From the IMG/VR virus record IMGVR_UViG_3300017743_000105, positions 1 to 25,656 of that record: a DNA stretch of 25,656 nucleotides. One strand, given 5' to 3'. The translations under genes were made by a program, and so were the position numbers. Numbering within the stretch: the first letter of the stretch is position 1; each line of letters opens with the position of its first letter. Source of the stretch: a virus. Positions 7,201 through 24,798 of the stretch are shown piece by piece. The notes under the pieces are model-generated. The model saw nothing but the letters and a program-made list of their open reading frames with translations, was not told the DNA's origin and searched no databases.

Positions 7201-7920
7201 CTAAATAGTACGTTTTGTAACAGGAGGATGTGCAATGTCTCCTTCTTTGTCCCATTTAGTATAGAGGTTCTTATAATGGCTTCTCATAACATTAAGTACT
7301 CTAGTAATATGTTGTGTACTATGTCCTGATATTTCCCTTAATAAAATATACAGTGCCTTCTTGTTAAAGATTTCAATTGCATCGACACGAGACATAAGCT
7401 CTATAATGGACCACGCAATTTTAATATCACGCTCTTTTTTAAATACTTTTGTAATATTTTCTTCCCAGTAATCAATAACAGACTTAAAAAATTCTCTCTC
7501 TTCTTGAGATCTAACTGTGTTGTCATCGTAAGAAGTATTCTTTACATCTTTGTGTTTAAGGTCTAAGACATCGTTATGAGTCTTCATCTTTTTATAATTG
7601 TTATTATTGTGGCAAATCAACCAGTTCTTAACAACAACACTAAAATAACTAAATGCCTTGCCTTTTCCTTGCTTATACTTGTCAAGCCTTGTTATCATAA
7701 AAGATATAACATCATGCTTAACACTTTCAATAGGATAATCAAAGTAATAAAACTTAAAAGTGTGGATTATGTTTTCAACTAATTTTTCAAAAGGCTGTCT
7801 AAGAGACTCATTATAAATTATATTTCTTTCTCTATGCGAATCAGTTGCATTATAAGCTACAATTGCTGCTTCGGTTTCTTCTGTAAAATACATTCTTGTT
7901 TTTGATTTCTTGCGTGGCAT
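7201..7920 (-). CDS. gp55: late-transcription sigma factor gp55
   Basis: Homologue of T4 gp55, the small sigma-70-family factor that directs host RNA polymerase to phage late promoters together with gp33 and the sliding clamp gp45. Seen: the marine-phage N-terminus PRKKSKTRMYFTEETEAAIV, a region-2-like core (LVENIIHTFKFYYFDYPIES, then HDVISFMITRLDKYKQGKGK and AFSYFSVVVKNWLICHN) that corresponds to core-binding and -10-recognition helices, and a C-terminal helical section with REISGHSTQHITRVLNVMRS. Length is 239 aa against 185 for T4 gp55. It is the last gene of the unit beginning at promoter copy A and immediately precedes the late baseplate genes, which makes sense for an early-to-late switch. 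Confidence 0.9.
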   Translation of the reverse strand: MPRKKSKTRMYFTEETEAAIVAYNATDSHRERNIIYNESLRQPFEKLVENIIHTFKFYYFDYPIESVKHDVISFMITRLDKYKQGKGKAFSYFSVVVKNWLICHNNNNYKKMKTHNDVLDLKHKDVKNTSYDDNTVRSQEEREFFKSVIDYWEENITKVFKKERDIKIAWSIIELMSRVDAIEIFNKKALYILLREISGHSTQHITRVLNVMRSHYKNLYTKWDKEGDIAHPPVTKRTI

Positions 7921-8181: not shown

Positions 8182-8924
8182 GAGAACAGATCCTTTAATT
8201 TGTCAGTGTCTAAATTCTTTACTAGCTCTTCTTCTTTAGTCTCACCTTTCATATACTTCGGAAAGTCTATACGAGATTCACCAGATAACATAAATTCTTC
8301 TTTCTCTTGTCTTGCTGCTGACATATCAGCCATAGATACAATGTGTGGTAAGTTTGTTTTCATTGCCTTCCATTCAGCACCTTCAAAAAAGTAAGATGTG
8401 TTTTGTTCATTATATAAACCATCTGCAAGCCTCATACCAATATACTCTGATTCTGTCATTGAAATCTGAAATTGGTTTAGAATCCAAACAGCTCTATCAG
8501 TAACTGTCATATAATGAATTGCAGGATTATGGTTGTAGTGCTCTTGTAATTTCTTTGCACGCCATTCGTCAGTATTTGTGACGTAATAGTCATCTTCCAT
8601 ATTTCCTATCTTGCCAAGATCATGAAACATTGCAGCAAATGTAACCGATTCTTCTGTAATATCGTCTAAGAACATTCCCTGATCTTTAAATAAATTATAG
8701 TATTTGTGAGCCCATTGCATTATGTTTAAGACATGTGCAACATAACCACCTGGAAAAGCATTGTGATAATAAGCTCTGCCAGATGCTGGTGCTAGTGTCA
8801 TTCTTTCTTCAAAATGATCATGAAGTGCATTAATCTTTTCTAATCTCTCACCTTCAAATGTGTCATTTATTATTTTACGTAACTCAGACCAATTTGATTC
8901 GATCTGTTCTGCACTTATTCTCAT
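8178..8924 (-). CDS. HD-domain phosphohydrolase
   Basis: Metal-dependent HD-superfamily hydrolase. Seen: first metal histidine in GGYVAHVLNIM (H64), the HD doublet in AAMFHDLGKIGNM (H101, D102), additional histidines in LQEHYNHNPAIHY (about 129-137), and the last aspartate in HIVSMADMSAA (about D200). This is the H...HD...H...D order of YfbR/YhaM-like HD enzymes acting on nucleotides or RNA ends. Substrate cannot be told from sequence: dNMP, cyclic or oligonucleotide, or RNA 3' ends are all possible. It is in the promoter-A unit: SD AAGGAG is inside the end of the 3D-domain gene, the start overlaps its stop (ATGA), and the next gene overlaps in the same way. Confidence 0.88.
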   Translation of the reverse strand: MRISAEQIESNWSELRKIINDTFEGERLEKINALHDHFEERMTLAPASGRAYYHNAFPGGYVAHVLNIMQWAHKYYNLFKDQGMFLDDITEESVTFAAMFHDLGKIGNMEDDYYVTNTDEWRAKKLQEHYNHNPAIHYMTVTDRAVWILNQFQISMTESEYIGMRLADGLYNEQNTSYFFEGAEWKAMKTNLPHIVSMADMSAARQEKEEFMLSGESRIDFPKYMKGETKEEELVKNLDTDKLKDLFS

Positions 8925-9436
8925 GCATTCTCCTTTGTCCAGTTTAATTTAAAAATGTCTACGTCTGTAAATTTATACGGTTTGACATGTTCAGACTCTA
9001 ATATGTCTACAACATTAACCCACTTTGCATTCATTGTATCTCTTACTTGATAAACGCCGTCTTTTCCATCTGTACCTTTCAATAATACAAAATCACCATA
9101 ATTAAAAGGTCCTCCCCATCTTGCGAGTAAGTTACGAGAAAGAGCAACAAATTTATATCTAGATGCATGATGTATCCTTATTTTAGTGCCATCAGCTGTT
9201 ATATCTGGTGTGTCATCACATTGTATTGTATTTGGCTGATACATTGTTACATCAACTTTTATTCCGTGTTGATAAAATTCTGATAATCTATCAGATAGCT
9301 CTTTGTTCTGATTTGCAAGAAACTCGTAATGTTCGTGATACGTGTCTTTGTTTGCTTTCATAAACTTAGTTGCAACATAACCATTCATAGTTGTTATGAA
9401 CGCTATTCCAATTAGATATTTGCTAAGGTTTTGCAT
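8921..9436 (-). CDS. membrane-anchored 3D / double-psi barrel domain protein
   Basis: A 171-aa protein with an N-terminal hydrophobic helix (residues about 5-22, YLIGIAFITTMNGYVATKF) acting as signal anchor, then a charged linker helix, then a 3D-like (MltA/RlpA-type double-psi beta-barrel) domain from about 59: VDVTMYQPN, DDTPDITADGTKI, KFVALSRNLL, FNYGDFVLLKG, VYQVRDTMNAKWVNVVDIL. The three aspartates that name the 3D domain have plausible counterparts in TPDITADGT, YQVRDTMN and VVDIL. Family members cut or bind peptidoglycan glycan strands, so a periplasmic cell-wall role is likely but enzymatic activity is unproven. It is the first gene after promoter copy A, with SD AGGAG before its ATG. 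Confidence 0.8.
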   Translation of the reverse strand: MQNLSKYLIGIAFITTMNGYVATKFMKANKDTYHEHYEFLANQNKELSDRLSEFYQHGIKVDVTMYQPNTIQCDDTPDITADGTKIRIHHASRYKFVALSRNLLARWGGPFNYGDFVLLKGTDGKDGVYQVRDTMNAKWVNVVDILESEHVKPYKFTDVDIFKLNWTKENA

Positions 9437-17520: not shown

Positions 17521-17622
17521 TTAGTATTCTGGCCTCCTGCCAAAGTCATTTTTTTCAAATCTCTTCTTTAAGTGCCTACCATACAAAAAAAGCATAATCG
17601 AAAGTTTTATTCTATCTACCAT
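17521..17622 (-). CDS. small basic peptide, 33 aa
   Basis: MVDRIKLSIMLFLYGRHLKK then RFEKNDFGRRPEY. ATG at 17622 lies in the last codons of uvdE (11-nt overlap). A short hydrophobic patch with a basic tail. Supported only by overlap and by filling the gap to the next ORF. Confidence 0.45.
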   Translation of the reverse strand: MVDRIKLSIMLFLYGRHLKKRFEKNDFGRRPEY

Positions 17623-18553
17623 GTATCTGATGATATTTCTCAACTGCCAACTCCTTGTGTTTCGCTTCGACTACGATATCAACATCGTAACCATAAGTAT
17701 CGATGTACTGATATACGTAGTCAGAATGCGCTTGTGGTTTTATTTTAGGGTCGCCTTTTTCTTCACTCCTAGATTCCGAATAATGGAAACAAGGCTTGAT
17801 GCCTTTCGGCCAAGTCGACGCAGCCAGCTTAACGGCATCGCGCTCGGTAAGATCGCCAGGGCAAAACCTGTGGTGATGATAGTCGAACACGATGGGCAAG
17901 CCAATACGACGGTATACTCCATGATATAGATCCTCCACTGAGTAACATGTTGCCTTATCGTCGTTTTCGACAGTAAGACGGGTTTTAACTGAATCTGGTA
18001 GACGTTCGAAGTTCTTAACGAACCTGTTTAGTGCATTTTCTTTTTCACCATAAACGCCTCCAGCATGAATATTAATTTTATTGTAGGGAGTCCGAGACAA
18101 TCCCATCATATCGAATACTTCGCCGTGGATCGTTAAGTCGTTGATGCAGTTCTGTACTACGTGCTCATGCGGTGATGTAAGAACATTGAATTGTCCCGGA
18201 TGTGTTGTAAGCCTAAGGCCACCTTTAGTCGCTTTCTCTCCGCCAGATTTTAGCCAAAACTTAATTTCCTCTAGGTCTTTAAGTTGGCCCCATTTATATT
18301 CGGACTTCCAAGGGATCATAGAAGATGAGATGCGAAATAACTCATAACCTTGCTCTATGTTCCACTCGATAATCTTGTCCAGATCTCTGACGTTTTTTAG
18401 TATAATCTCAGACGCATAATCTGTACCTTTCGATTCGAAAGTACGTTTGATCATTGTTCGCCCGGTTGTTATCCGTTCTACACCTTTTTCTTTTCCACCG
18501 TACTGTTGCGGATAACTGAGTTGCATATTAATGCATGCATAACCTAGTGCCAT
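17612..18553 (-). CDS. uvdE: UV damage endonuclease UvdE
   Basis: TIM-barrel endonuclease that nicks 5' to UV photoproducts (cyclobutane dimers, 6-4 products) and some other lesions, starting an alternative excision repair. All expected metal and active-site motifs are visible in order: THPGQ (H118), NIHAGG (H163), TVENDDK (E196), VFDYHHHR (D224, H226-228), PCFHYSES (H257), QAHSDYV (H276) and VVEAKHKE (E296, with the nearby lysine that is often modified in this family). At 313 aa it is a complete enzyme of normal length. The ATG at 18553 lies 4 nt after the stop of the glycosylase gene. The DNA is more GC-rich than its neighbours (34 of 60 bases at 17821-17880), suggesting a recent or separate origin. 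Confidence 0.95.
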   Translation of the reverse strand: MALGYACINMQLSYPQQYGGKEKGVERITTGRTMIKRTFESKGTDYASEIILKNVRDLDKIIEWNIEQGYELFRISSSMIPWKSEYKWGQLKDLEEIKFWLKSGGEKATKGGLRLTTHPGQFNVLTSPHEHVVQNCINDLTIHGEVFDMMGLSRTPYNKINIHAGGVYGEKENALNRFVKNFERLPDSVKTRLTVENDDKATCYSVEDLYHGVYRRIGLPIVFDYHHHRFCPGDLTERDAVKLAASTWPKGIKPCFHYSESRSEEKGDPKIKPQAHSDYVYQYIDTYGYDVDIVVEAKHKELAVEKYHQIHGR

Positions 18554-18557
18554 ATTT

Positions 18558-18980
18558 TTAGCTTCTCCCTAATTGTGTTTGTTGTTCTAGTGCAGTTGCC
18601 AAATAAAGATTCAAGACCTTATCATTAGGCTGCACATTAAAATTATTATGCTGAAAGATTTCCCACGAATCTTTTGCATACTTACCAATTCCGTGCAATT
18701 CAGAAGGATCACTAAATCCGTCAAGATACTCTAAGCTAAAACGAATTAGTGTAACTGCTCTCTTATTTTGCATACCCAATGGTGTTAGCATTTTAGAAAG
18801 TTCTGATACAGCTGCGTTAGCCAAGTCTCTAGGATTGGGATATTTTTTAAATAACTTGTGTCGAATTTTATCGACTTGTTTTCTAGTTGTTAAGTTAAGC
18901 ATTATACAACAGACCAACATTTTCCACGGGTCATTTTTATATATATCCTGCAAAAGTCTGAAATTGCGAACTTTTATCAT
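18558..18980 (-). CDS. MBD4-like HhH-GPD DNA glycosylase
   Basis: Resembles the glycosylase domain of MBD4, which excises T or U opposite G. Seen in a 140-aa frame: DPWKMLVCCIMLNLTTRKQ (about 17-35), KYPNPRDLA, LTPLGMQNKRAVTLIRFS, the helix-hairpin-helix LHGIGKYAKDSWEIF (about 95-109), and PNDKVLNLYL where D120 aligns with the catalytic aspartate of MBD4 (PEDHKLNKY in the vertebrate protein). No iron-sulfur cluster cysteines, consistent with MBD4 rather than EndoIII/MutY. Start taken at ATG 18980, which overlaps the upstream stop as ATGA; a TTG at 19025 is less likely. Directly followed by uvdE, making a base-excision plus UV-repair pair. Confidence 0.85.
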   Translation of the reverse strand: MIKVRNFRLLQDIYKNDPWKMLVCCIMLNLTTRKQVDKIRHKLFKKYPNPRDLANAAVSELSKMLTPLGMQNKRAVTLIRFSLEYLDGFSDPSELHGIGKYAKDSWEIFQHNNFNVQPNDKVLNLYLATALEQQTQLGRS

Positions 18981-19192
18981 ATAACGTCTACGATTCTCGA
19001 TTCTCTTACTGAAGTTAATTCCCAATCATTCGGATTTGCAGTCATCATCTCACCGACTTTGTTTTCAACAACTGATACTGATGTTGCTTCACCTACAAGA
19101 ATTTCTTCTTTTAGTTTTTTGATTTTAGTATTGCCTTTGTTGCCAACAGGAATTTCTATTTCCTGTACAACTGTTGCGATGTAGTATTTCAT
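18977..19192 (-). CDS. DUF4494-like small protein, 71 aa
   Basis: Seen: KYYIATVVQEIEIPVGNKGN, then KIKKLKEEILVGEATSVSVV, ENKVGEMM, and NDWELTSVRESRIVDVI. The order of strand, K-x-x-x-E-x-x-L-V-x-x-A-x-S/T-x-x-x-x-E helix, and a final V-x-x-S/T-R-I-x-x-V/I strand resembles DUF4494, a common phage/Bacteroidetes family of unknown function. The assignment is by pattern from memory and tentative. ATGA overlaps on both sides couple it to the 30-aa peptide and the glycosylase. Confidence 0.65.
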   Translation of the reverse strand: MKYYIATVVQEIEIPVGNKGNTKIKKLKEEILVGEATSVSVVENKVGEMMTANPNDWELTSVRESRIVDVI

Positions 19193-21091: not shown

Positions 21092-21248
21092 CTTTCTCTT
21101 TCTTCTTACTGTTTTCTTTTAAATACTCCAGAAGTTTAGTAGTTGCAGCTCTATCGTCTCCTTCATGTCTAGGCTGTGATTCTAATTGCATAACACGTTT
21201 TTCTAGATTTTCTATTCTAGTGAGCATGAGCTCTAATATCTTATCCAC
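21072..21248 (-). CDS. small coiled-coil protein, 58 aa
   Basis: GTG start at 21248 overlapping the deformylase stop; an internal ATG at 21227 is an alternative. Sequence: DKILELMLTRIENLEKRVMQ (a heptad-like coil), a polar turn, then TTKLLEYLKENSKKKEKDEE. Could form a small oligomer and partner with the membrane peptide encoded over its 3' end. Function unknown. Confidence 0.55.
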   Translation of the reverse strand: MDKILELMLTRIENLEKRVMQLESQPRHEGDDRAATTKLLEYLKENSKKKEKDEELNR

Positions 21249-21882
21249 TTATTTCCCAACCTTCCTTTAGTAAGTTTTGCACTTTCTTATACTTCATTAC
21301 TTTAACTGCATCGCCTTTTTTTATGGTAACCAAATGATTTCTACCAATCTTCTTTTCTGCACGATAAGTCGTATCTATCCTTCTGTCCATGCAAACGATT
21401 CCGCTTAAATGGTCTACTTCATGTTGCACACATACAGCTTCTAAAAGTCGTATTGCAGTATCTTGCTGATTGGATTTATCTTCCCATACACCTTTGGCAC
21501 CTTCGATACCAGTTGCCTTACCACTAAATATCAACGAACCTTCCTGTTGTGCAGTTTTTACTTCGACTGTTTCGTATCTTTCGGTTCGTATTCCCTTGCC
21601 AGGGTAAGATAAGCAACCCTCATAATAGCTAACCTTGTCAGACTTACTAATGATCTCAGGGTTGATGAGTATAATAGGCTCACGAACATTGAGTACGGCC
21701 ACTTGTGCATCAATTCCCACTTGATTCGCTGCCAAGCCAATCCCGTCTTTTCTTTTGTTAAGTATCTGAAATAGTTTTGTTGCAATTTCCATTCCTTCTT
21801 CAACAGTTACCTCCCTAAGCTTCTTGTTAATCACAGGGTTGTGATTCTTGTTGCAGTTAATTACCTTAAGATTATTCTCCAA
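21241..21882 (-). CDS. def: peptide deformylase with insertion and C-terminal extension
   Basis: Metalloenzyme removing the N-formyl group from nascent proteins; common in marine T4-like phages. Motif I GIGLAANQVG (47-56), motif II EGCLS (88-92, metal ligand C90) and motif III HEVDH (154-158) are all intact. The distance from motif II to III is about 66 residues against roughly 43 in standard enzymes, so there is an insertion at about 118-147 (GKATGIEGAKGVWEDKSNQQ and following). After the catalytic domain comes a basic tail (HLVTIKKGDAVKVMKYKKVQ, then NLLKEGWEISG), a motif I recall at the ends of other marine phage proteins. TTG start at 21882 with GGGG upstream; no nearby ATG. Confidence 0.9.
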   Translation of the reverse strand: MENNLKVINCNKNHNPVINKKLREVTVEEGMEIATKLFQILNKRKDGIGLAANQVGIDAQVAVLNVREPIILINPEIISKSDKVSYYEGCLSYPGKGIRTERYETVEVKTAQQEGSLIFSGKATGIEGAKGVWEDKSNQQDTAIRLLEAVCVQHEVDHLSGIVCMDRRIDTTYRAEKKIGRNHLVTIKKGDAVKVMKYKKVQNLLKEGWEISG

Positions 21883-22515: not shown

Positions 22516-22540
22516 TTTTTCGCGTAAAAGTAAAGGATTA
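22506..22540 (-). promoter_or_regulatory. promoter copy D of the repeated phage promoter cassette
   Basis: Minus strand CCTTTACTTTTACGC with -35 TTTACT (22534-22529), a 17-nt spacer, and -10 TAAGTT (22511-22506) in place of TAGATT. The upstream A-tract consists of the last Lys/Gln codons and stop of the HNH gene. Drives the 87-aa gene and the deformylase unit. Confidence 0.7.
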
Positions 22541-23035
22541 TTTTTGCTTTTTTTCACTTTTTTTTTGACGCTTTATTTCTGCTAAGCGCCCTACGTCCTC
22601 TTTTGTTTTCTTTTTATGGCAGGGTCTACATAAAGTCTGGAGATTTCTTTCATCCCAGTAGCTTAAATCTATTGCATGATTGGGTAGTCCCTTCTGTTCG
22701 TATAACGGCTTTATGTGATCTACTTCGAATCGTGGATCGTAATCACCACATTCACAACACTCACCATAATCTCTCTGCCTAATGTATTTTCTTATTGTTT
22801 TTCCATCGTATAACATCATATACTTTTCAGAACATTCAGGGTGCCAGCTAGCTCTCATATTCCTTCTGCCTTGATTATCATTAATAATGCTACCACACCA
22901 TCTGCACTGGCCTTTTTCTTTTACATCATAATATGAGTCTGGCTTTGGTGGGTAACGATAATCTTTTTCATGATGATCAGTCTTTCTAGTCTTTTTCCCT
23001 AGTGTTCTTTTTGTTCCGCTGCTCCATCTACGCAT
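22538..23035 (-). CDS. HNH endonuclease
   Basis: HNH nuclease of 165 aa. Seen: a basic N-terminus; a first zinc-knuckle-like set C44-x-x-C47 and H65-x-x-C68 (QCRWCG; WHPEC); a second C93-x-x-C96 (ECCECG); the HNH core FEVDHIKPL (D106, H107), ERNLQTLCRPCH (N131, C136, C139, H140) and a basic C-terminal tail with KKKTKED. This is the McrA/T4-like free-standing type, which may be a homing nuclease or an accessory cutter of host DNA. SD GGAGG lies a few bases before the ATG. Its Lys-rich end supplies the A-tract of promoter D. Confidence 0.9.
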   Translation of the reverse strand: MRRWSSGTKRTLGKKTRKTDHHEKDYRYPPKPDSYYDVKEKGQCRWCGSIINDNQGRRNMRASWHPECSEKYMMLYDGKTIRKYIRQRDYGECCECGDYDPRFEVDHIKPLYEQKGLPNHAIDLSYWDERNLQTLCRPCHKKKTKEDVGRLAEIKRQKKSEKKQK

Positions 23036-23118
23036 GTAACCTCCATTTGTCTTTTCTGCAAGTATATAAAATATATTGCAATAACCTTGATTGATAGAAT
23101 AATTATAAAGTATGTCAA
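23036..23118 (-). promoter_or_regulatory. leader of HNH gene with weak promoter-like sequence
   Basis: A 79-nt gap, AT-rich. On the minus strand TTGACA (23118-23113) is followed at 16 nt by TATCAA, and further down TATACT occurs without a good -35. This could be a separate host-type promoter, but the match is partial. No copy of the four-copy cassette is present. Confidence 0.3.
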
Positions 23119-23783
23119 CTAGTACTATCTGCTTTTTTCGATGAGTTAATCAGTGCGTCTGATACCTGTGCGCTGAGTAATGATTGAATTGAAAAGTAAA
23201 GTGAAGGATTACGCTTAAGTAGAGATTTAAACTCAGGCTGTTTCCACACTAAACATTCAGTATCATGTTTTGCAATACAATCAGCAGTTGCCGGTCTTTC
23301 TGTAAGAAAACTCATCTCACCAACAAACTGCCCGTCTTTTAATTCTGTAACTTTCTTTCCCTTTACTGCTATGTCCACAGTGCCGTTATAAATTAATATT
23401 AGTTTCTTTACGTCTGCACCCTCTTTAATCATGTGATGCCCACTCTTAAATTTTTCCCACTTAGCTATCTTGGTGACCTTGAGATATTCTACAGGACTAA
23501 GATCTTTGAATAGAGATTCATATAACTCTTTGTCTTTTGGTTTCATTTTGATCGGACGCTTCTCATAGAATATAATGGCTATGTGATATAGATTGAGTCC
23601 TACAAATACTAGATTCCAACCGATCGGTAACCACATAGGTGTTATAGGAATAAAATAATTATACAGAACAGAGAACAGACTTGCAACTACCGATACTACA
23701 CGTAAATATAATATGTCCTTGACCAGAAAGCTAAATGCTATCAGACCAAATGCTAAGTGTCCTGCTATTGTTGCTAAGTTCAT
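23115..23783 (-). CDS. Popeye-like membrane protein with cyclic-nucleotide-binding domain
   Basis: Three hydrophobic helices (about residues 5-25, 30-50 and 54-77, counted from ATG 23795), then RPIKMKPKDKELYESLFKDL, then a cNMP-binding beta barrel (about 96-200: FKSGHHMIKEGADVKKLILI, YNGTVDIAVKGK, DGQFVGEMSFLTERPATADC) and a final helix. The order of three helices, R-P-(V/I)-K-hinge, L-Y-E/R-x-L/M-F, cNMP domain matches Popeye-domain (POPDC) proteins and their bacterial relatives. The phosphate-binding cassette keeps G-E (159-160) but has R-P-A-T-A, with the arginine one place earlier than in classical CRP, so ligand binding is likely but unproven. ATG 23783 overlaps the upstream stop (TAATG); ATG 23795 adds four residues. 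Confidence 0.82.
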   Translation of the reverse strand: MNLATIAGHLAFGLIAFSFLVKDILYLRVVSVVASLFSVLYNYFIPITPMWLPIGWNLVFVGLNLYHIAIIFYEKRPIKMKPKDKELYESLFKDLSPVEYLKVTKIAKWEKFKSGHHMIKEGADVKKLILIYNGTVDIAVKGKKVTELKDGQFVGEMSFLTERPATADCIAKHDTECLVWKQPEFKSLLKRNPSLYFSIQSLLSAQVSDALINSSKKADSTS

Positions 23784-23923
23784 TACAGATGCCATCCCAT
23801 TATCACAAAATAAAAGTATGCTAGTGCAGCCAATACCCAGACCGCTGTTGAAATATAGAGATTAGTTATATCCTGCTGAGTAGCAGCACTCTTCTTCTTT
23901 TCTACTTTGTCCCATTTGTTCAT
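23783..23923 (-). CDS. single-pass membrane peptide, 46 aa
   Basis: NKWDKVEKKKSAATQQDITN then LYISTAVWVLAALAYFYFVI and MGWHL. A basic cytoplasmic N-terminus and one C-terminal membrane helix (about 22-42). It ends in TAATG with the Popeye-like gene, so it may be a small subunit or partner of it. Start is 1 nt before the stop region of the 54-aa gene upstream. Confidence 0.62.
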   Translation of the reverse strand: MNKWDKVEKKKSAATQQDITNLYISTAVWVLAALAYFYFVIMGWHL

Positions 23924-24088
23924 TTATATTCCCCACAATAACCATCTTGCTAGCTTCCATACCGCATACCAGCTAGTAAAACAGCCTACAGGTATAAGTA
24001 TCAGATAAACAAATAACCTAATTATGTGATCTTTTCTTTTTTGTTTTAGTTCCATCGACATCCCCTCTATCCAGTTGCTGGGTTTCAT
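23924..24088 (-). CDS. small membrane protein, 54 aa
   Basis: ATG at 24088 overlaps the sulfotransferase stop (ATGA) and has AGGAG 10 nt upstream; a longer TTG-started frame (24121) is less likely. Sequence: NWIEGMSMELKQKRKDHIIR then LFVYLILIPVGCFTSWYAVW and KLARWLLWGI. One membrane helix followed by an aromatic amphipathic end. Unrecognised. Confidence 0.65.
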   Translation of the reverse strand: MKPSNWIEGMSMELKQKRKDHIIRLFVYLILIPVGCFTSWYAVWKLARWLLWGI

Positions 24089-24798
24089 ATGTTTAGATCT
24101 CCTATGTTTTCTAAATAACAATTAAAGTCTTCTTCATATGCAGATCTAATTCCTTCAAGTATATCTGGGTCATTGCGAAGGCTAATAATTTCTCTTCTCC
24201 AATTCGGATTAGCATTAATATTGACAGGACTAGCCTCGTCAGATATTTTTGTTATGATCTCATTGTCTATATCTTCAAATTTTAAATACTCATCTATTCC
24301 AAACGGAACACCGTCCAAGCCTTTGTGAAACCAGACCTGAGGTACTATGTGTATATTAAAATACTTTTCTTTCTTTACGTCTTCCAATGTATATAGTAAC
24401 CGATCTTTCCACGTGCCCTCTTCATAATTCTTATCTCTAAAATGGTTGTCCAGTATAGGGCTGTTAAGTGCTGTGGCTGCTGCGCTAAAAAATCTTGTGA
24501 TGGGATTTCTCATTATTGTCAAGAGACGAAACTCACCCCTGTTTGGAATAACATTGTTGTTTAGATTGGTTGGTCCTCCACGCAGAATATGTGATCTGAT
24601 TGTTGTGCTGGCACACTTGGGTGTATGTATTACTATAACTCTCCAGCCTTCGTCCTTCCAAGCTAGGCCGTTCTGTTTGTTCATGTCTAGAAATTTCATT
24701 TCTTTATTTCCCTGTATGTGTTTGGGCTCGTATGGACACATCAAACAACCATGCCCACAACAATAACCTCTATCTATTAAAAATTCTCTAGATAACAT
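24085..24798 (-). CDS. DUF5522-like Cys motif fused to sulfotransferase
   Basis: Residues 1-32 contain REFLIDRGYCCGHGCLMCPY (C13, C14, C18, C21), the hallmark of DUF5522-type short proteins. From about 52 on it is a P-loop-like sulfotransferase: VIVIHTPKCASTTIRSH (5' phosphosulfate loop at 60-67 for PAPS), RLLTIMRNPITRFFSAA (3'-phosphate motif R-N-P-x-x-R at 97-102), then helices with IDEYLKFEDIDNEI and a C-terminal YEEDFNCYLE, as in Sulfotransfer_2-type enzymes acting on glycans or proteins. The frame is open without a stop between the parts. An internal ATG (MKFLDM) could allow a separate sulfotransferase product. The gene overlaps both neighbours. Confidence 0.82.
   Translation of the reverse strand: MLSREFLIDRGYCCGHGCLMCPYEPKHIQGNKEMKFLDMNKQNGLAWKDEGWRVIVIHTPKCASTTIRSHILRGGPTNLNNNVIPNRGEFRLLTIMRNPITRFFSAAATALNSPILDNHFRDKNYEEGTWKDRLLYTLEDVKKEKYFNIHIVPQVWFHKGLDGVPFGIDEYLKFEDIDNEIITKISDEASPVNINANPNWRREIISLRNDPDILEGIRSAYEEDFNCYLENIGDLNI

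Follow-up and report, generated by a model that had tools for sequence, protein, structure and literature searches.

Popeye (POPDC) proteins are membrane sensors of cyclic AMP in animal muscle. The animal members POPDC1–3 (BVES, POPDC2, POPDC3; PF04831 plus the Popeye domain) have three membrane helices, a cytoplasmic cyclic-nucleotide-binding (CNB) fold domain and a C-terminal helix, and a published view places the origin of POPDC at the base of animals. The animal proteins change the activity of TREK-1 and adenylyl cyclase 9 (PMC9724675, PMC5872366), and their DSPE and FQVT motifs form a non-canonical cAMP site (PMC6562197, PMC4918794). Other CNB domains neutralise the cyclic phosphate with an arginine of the phosphate-binding cassette, which is R209 in PKA RI-alpha, at +9 from the cassette glutamate (PMC10959531), and R97 in the Pycsar receptor PsPycTIR, at +10 (PMC11224242). 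A trypanosome PKA regulatory subunit that lacks the phosphate arginine binds inosine (PMC10959531), so a pocket without this residue need not be empty.

Here we describe a POPDC gene in a 25,656-nucleotide viral DNA (IMG/VR record IMGVR_UViG_3300017743_000105, positions 1 to 25,656; hereafter the window). An initial annotation made from the sequence had proposed a Popeye-like protein with a small membrane partner that might sense or sequester cyclic nucleotides at the host membrane, in connection with host cAMP or with CBASS or Pycsar defence. Of that interpretation, the part concerning cyclic nucleotides and counter-defence is the less well supported.

Results

Identity and fold of the phage protein

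The gene and the parts of its product are as follows:

23115–23783, minus strand: phage POPDC (Popeye) protein, 222 aa
23553–23783, minus strand: three-helix membrane module with conserved GHLAFGLIAFSFLVKDILYLR and WNxxFxxxN...KRP (AlphaFold2 models, alignments, hhalign)
23127–23540, minus strand: predicted cytoplasmic CNB-fold (Popeye) domain with C-terminal helix
23283–23321, minus strand: degenerate phosphate-binding cassette GEMSFLTERPATA, with Ala at +9, Thr at +10 and a basic residue at +7 (81 viral proteins)

The minus-strand open reading frame at 23115–23795 codes for 226 aa from an in-frame ATG at 23795; because Met5 (23783) is the first residue of every relative in the viral alignment, translation almost certainly begins there and yields a 222-aa protein. 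POPDC1-3 (PF04831) of Pfam matched the membrane part at 2.3e-13 (50.9 bits; curated cut-off 28.1 bits), as it did 68/68 viral and bacterial membrane modules tested, and cNMP_binding (PF00027) matched the soluble part at 6.4e-15, above its cut-off. The Popeye-like layout that had been read from the sequence is borne out by these two matches and by an AlphaFold2 model having three helices, the YEKRPIK linker, LYESLF and a beta-barrel. It is nearly certain that the gene is a true member of the Popeye family. The corresponding stretch of human POPDC1, WNxxFxxxN..H.....YxKRPV, presumably has spacing identical to that in the phage protein. Between the window and a close copy (L002), dN was 0.053 and dS 0.61, and the resulting dN/dS of about 0.09 implies a functional gene. 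For the 46-aa open reading frame that overlaps the POPDC start (see below), the same comparison gave dN 0.047 and dS 0.66. Both genes are under purifying selection.

The whole-protein AlphaFold2 model had a mean pLDDT of 75.6 and a pTM of 0.60; modelling the membrane part alone (pLDDT 80.3) gave the same three helices, at residues 4–24, 29–48 and 55–79. The predicted orientation of the module, from the positive-inside rule only, is N-out/C-in. The cNMP fold expected of the soluble part was present in the predicted structure: a fold search of the PDB (VIA) matched many CNB chains at Z 16–18, among them 3gyd (Z 17.8) and cUMP-bound PycTIR (8jsk; Z 16.6). No experimental Popeye domain structure was among the PDB matches to the window protein, and a 2019 review reported none (PMC6952887).

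For the membrane module, a Foldseek search for a known fold returned no match below E 1. Complex I subunits of the NuoJ/ND6 type were matched in VIA at a Z of about 10, which may reflect merely a common helical arrangement; SWEET and YgjV structures were absent from that list. In one hhalign run with two Vibrio sequences, chosen as the best weak match, a YgjV-type protein aligned to the module with a probability of 96% (E 4e-9), and four unrelated membrane families of these phages scored <1%. Imp-YgjV, MtN3_slv (SWEET) and MPC, which form one superfamily, gave weak Pfam matches in a few POPDC membrane modules. YgjV (Imp-YgjV, PF10688, SWEET-like) shares the three-helix pattern SLxxKDIxxLRxxxxxG...N...N, but has no CNB domain. 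The resemblance between the Popeye module and the YgjV three-helix unit (window 23553–23783; L091:3001–3246; L092:2992–3246) suggests, as a lead rather than proof, the source from which the membrane half of POPDC may have come.

The degenerate ligand pocket

The cassette had been described as atypical, and GEMSFLTERPATAD proved to be real and conserved across the viral family. Gly159-Glu160, the ribose 2'-OH contact, is invariant in the viral alignment, and Ala, Thr and Ala occupy +9, +10 and +11 in 81/81 viral proteins. The residue at +7 is Lys in 74 of these and Arg in the other 7, and is invariantly basic in viruses only. In a set of 61 bacterial POPDC proteins (see below), neither Arg nor Lys occurs at +9 (0/61), while +10 is Arg in 2/61 and Lys in 3/61; the cassette glutamate is kept in about half of this set and lost in a large alphaproteobacterial group. 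The Ruegeria/Roseibium proteins have both lost the glutamate and gained a 3-residue insertion. The window protein has GEMS and ATAD/ATAT at the places corresponding to the animal DSPE and FQVT motifs, both of which are absent; the cAMP site of the animal members has therefore not been conserved.

Because the phosphate arginine is lost, canonical binding of cAMP, cGMP or cUMP is unlikely, and the ligand of phage POPDC is probably none of these bound in the usual way. Lys/Arg167, the basic +7 residue, could in principle provide a shifted phosphate contact. The trypanosome PKA subunit is a CNB domain with the same loss, but its compensating glutamate at +2 is Ser in phage POPDC, and its nucleoside mode is therefore not predicted here.

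These features bear on two alternative roles. One is counter-defence, in which POPDC would act at the host membrane as a sponge for cyclic nucleotides (cAMP, cUMP, cCMP) or as their sensor. The CNB fold is close to that of PycTIR in both sequence and structure, the ribose-contacting Gly-Glu is invariant, and the virus-only basic +7 residue could in principle replace the phosphate contact. PycTM, another Pycsar receptor, likewise joins a CNB domain to membrane helices. Phage POPDC differs from these receptors, however, in lacking the cUMP-binding arginine (Ala/Thr in its place in 81/81 viral proteins), in having a POPDC-type membrane part and in having no cyclase neighbour. Class III cyclase (PF00211) was found in 0 of 16 long POPDC relatives, which are fragments, so that the absence is not absolute; the search detected the family in 5 control genomes. 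No defence or counter-defence gene was recognised beside POPDC in the searches run, and a membrane protein encoded in a single copy would be an odd sponge. Cyclic-nucleotide sensing thus went unsupported by the pocket, and roles in cAMP, CBASS or Pycsar signalling found no backing in the genomic data; we consider such a function improbable.

The other is a scaffold that binds no ligand, the CNB fold having been kept only for dimerisation and interaction. This idea would fit both the arginine missing from viruses and nearly all bacteria and the glutamate missing from the large alphaproteobacterial group, but the invariant Gly-Glu and the A-T-A found throughout the 81 viral proteins suggest a pocket that has been kept, making a pure scaffold distinctly unlikely.

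Distribution in viruses and bacteria

The proposed survey of phage homologues and their neighbours revealed a viral family in IMG/VR, with lysis-type genes beside many members (see below). Relatives occur on at least 105 contigs, with 66 to 100% identity among the best 80. GenBank phage records held no full relative (one match, to the CNB part only, at 26% identity), PHROGs had no family for the window protein, and the best entry in a library of predicted viral structures covered part of the model, with no full-length match. Identity per column of the viral alignment averages 79%, and the longest conserved stretch lies in the membrane helices. The gene is single-copy in 16 long contigs, and it is carried by a single large group of uncultivated, T4-like phages. 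In a tree built from 23 viral and 61 bacterial sequences, the viral members formed one clade with 100/100 support and a long stem. This points to one acquisition, and viral POPDC was probably acquired once.

A genome scan with the viral alignment gave no matches. Bacterial members were found with a degenerate DNA pattern for WNxxFxxxN(10)[KR]RP[VI]. In bacterial and archaeal genomes totalling 257 billion bases, 72 stretches matched it (L093–L164), about 65 of them in a POPDC-type open frame. They come from about ten phyla and include Alpha- and Gammaproteobacteria, Myxococcota, Spirochaetota, Calditrichota/KSB1 and Fidelibacterota, as well as Planctomycetota, Cyanobacteriota, Eremiobacterota, Elusimicrobiota, Nitrospirota and further groups. 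All 49 bacterial membrane modules tested (49/49) matched POPDC1-3. The search pattern itself dictates the W, N, F, N, R and P of these proteins; the L31-R32 pair in the KDIL.LR motif is invariant independently of it. Samples of genomes from the phyla to which the Fidelibacterota and Ruegeria genomes belong contained POPDC in 5/149 and 4/398 cases, respectively. Bacterial POPDC is thus sporadic, with a frequency of about 1 to 3% in these two sampled phyla, and no neighbour recurs across phyla.

Phage and bacterial proteins have length, architecture and signature in common, and the cassette arginine is lost in nearly all bacterial members too. The two differ in that identity in the membrane module is 23–36%, that the invariant K/R at +7 and A-T-A belong to the viral clade, and that the bacterial neighbours have no lysis link. 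Animal POPDC1–3 share the three helices, the CNB-fold domain and the C-terminal helix with phage POPDC, which is prokaryotic and lacks DSPE, FQVT and the variable C-terminal tail. A broad bacterial family is unmentioned in the POPDC literature compared; bacterial proteins may already be listed in Pfam or InterPro.

Genomic context

The window genes adjoining POPDC are as follows:

23783–23923, minus strand: 46-aa single-helix membrane peptide, TAATG-coupled to POPDC (sequence, motif; kept in L001–L003)
23924–24088, minus strand: 54-aa membrane peptide, encoded 5' of the 46-aa frame (from the sequence; also kept in L001 and in L003)
22538–23035, minus strand: HNH endonuclease gene, directly 3' of POPDC (Pfam HNH, 8.1e-7; phrog_11604, 7.9e-26)

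The small coupled membrane partner was confirmed as a gene: the stop of its 46-aa frame overlaps the POPDC start as TAATG, and, as noted, it is under purifying selection. Its N-terminus, KWDKVEKK, is similar to KWDGVERR, found in some of the two-helix proteins that relatives encode upstream of POPDC; this short common motif, KWDxVE(K/R)(K/R), may be due to chance. The 54-aa peptide is a possible third operon member. Neither peptide had a significant holin family match in Pfam or PHROGs, and no recognised lysis gene lies beside POPDC in the window. Pfam gave no support for a lytic (3D-type) domain that visual inspection had suggested in the frame at 8921–9436.

Elsewhere in the window, the region 24085–24798 oddly pairs a DUF5522-like N-terminus with a weak sulfotransferase match. 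By eye, 17612–19025 and 21241–21882 contain a UvdE-like UV endonuclease beside an endonuclease III-like frame, and a peptide deformylase, within a gene set of T4-like character. The frame at 7201–7920 is kept in 36 contigs (viral POPDC loci plus the window); it looks by eye like a late sigma factor and has no PHROG match. Counts of T4-type late promoters (TATAAATA / NATAAATA) in the window did not exceed those in shuffles, and none lies near POPDC. No tRNA was found in the window. The baseplate protein is closest to those of Microcystis and Flavobacterium phages (36–44%). An outer-membrane-like protein of POPDC relatives had 0 matches in 199 genomes of a Fidelibacterota sample.

Many relatives place POPDC beside lysis-type genes, by which we mean a lytic transglycosylase, a GH108 endolysin or a two-helix holin-like protein. 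POPDC lies directly 3' of an SLT transglycosylase, whose N-terminal membrane anchor was seen by eye, in 36/63 SLT contigs; in 3 others a single gene separates the two. The POPDC start in most cases overlaps the stop of SLT, by 4 bases, and otherwise follows it by 1 to 3. Other lineages have a two-helix holin-like protein directly upstream of POPDC (11 loci), the holin label being weak (phrog_689 in 7/19 members, best 4e-4), or a GH108 endolysin directly downstream (4 loci). In 4/7 long contigs carrying GH108, a distance of about 26 to 100 kb separates that gene from POPDC. In the viral POPDC tree, lysis neighbours of both kinds are found in separate parts. Among dereplicated loci, a lysis-type gene occupies the +/-1 position of POPDC in 15/29, against 32/567 for other genes (p 1e-10, which is overstated because the loci are related).

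In the remaining SLT contigs the place of POPDC is taken by, among others, an unrelated membrane protein with three helices and about 100 aa, or by an HNH gene. This HNH gene, which in sister phages directly follows either SLT or the three-helix gene after it, resembles the one directly after POPDC in the window. The three-helix protein belongs to no known family, is mostly SLT-coupled (L256:1935–2234, L275, L276, L279, L281, L285, L286, L291, L300, L303) and is a candidate holin. A short motif had suggested that it and POPDC exclude each other after SLT; a profile found both in several contigs.

It might be supposed that POPDC itself is the holin or pinholin, its three helices forming the lesion and its CNB domain gating it. 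In the SLT lineage it is the only neighbour coupled to the endolysin, which appears to be membrane-anchored, and its helices are its most conserved part. However, separate holin-like genes share the locus in other relatives, and sister phages have the unrelated three-helix protein at that position, or neither, or in some cases both. We give this idea only a slim chance.

Five loci (L005, L011, L083, L084, L087) carry an unusual cassette for a phage, in which tandem type IV pilin-like proteins (N-methylation motif) lie downstream of POPDC and secreted thioredoxin-like, lipoprotein-like, GspE-N-like membrane and 430-aa secreted proteins are encoded in between.

A role apart from lysis would be that of a host-manipulating membrane regulator, which mimics host POPDC and alters a host channel, transporter or energy system. 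Supporting this possibility, animal POPDC acts on a channel and a cyclase (PMC9724675, PMC5872366), the position of the gene varies among phages, and some loci pair it with secreted thioredoxin-like, lipoprotein-like and pilin genes. Bacterial POPDC is sporadic, on the other hand, and the host may have no POPDC to mimic. We consider such a role unlikely.

Discussion

Phage POPDC is best read as a membrane receptor or scaffold that would control a small membrane partner. Our tentative proposal for its task, at well below even chances, is that it times or restrains lysis, or more broadly controls the integrity of the membrane, in response to how the host cell is faring. The gene was probably gained a single time, with bacteria as the likely donors, and was afterwards passed on and moved around in a large uncultivated group of T4-like phages. 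The three-helix module is predicted to anchor the protein in the inner membrane with the CNB-fold domain in the cytoplasm, where its ligand may be a nucleotide-like metabolite of a different kind or else a protein. If phage POPDC behaves like its animal counterpart, it would dimerise via its C-terminal helix and set the activity of its partner. That partner may be the 46-aa peptide in the window and, in relatives, the two-helix holin-like protein or the membrane-anchored lytic transglycosylase coded directly upstream. A more specific version, in which phages made a bacterial Popeye protein into a metabolite-gated lysis timer whose re-tuned CNB pocket frees or restrains a holin-like partner or anchored endolysin, strikes us as unlikely.

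The presence of POPDC in bacteria, widespread though sporadic, and its abundance in one phage group change the origin story of the family. They suggest that the missing phosphate arginine is ancestral and not an animal oddity. The phage and bacterial proteins also offer small soluble Popeye domains for structure work. If the link with lysis holds, POPDC would be a new phage means of tying the moment of lysis to host physiology.
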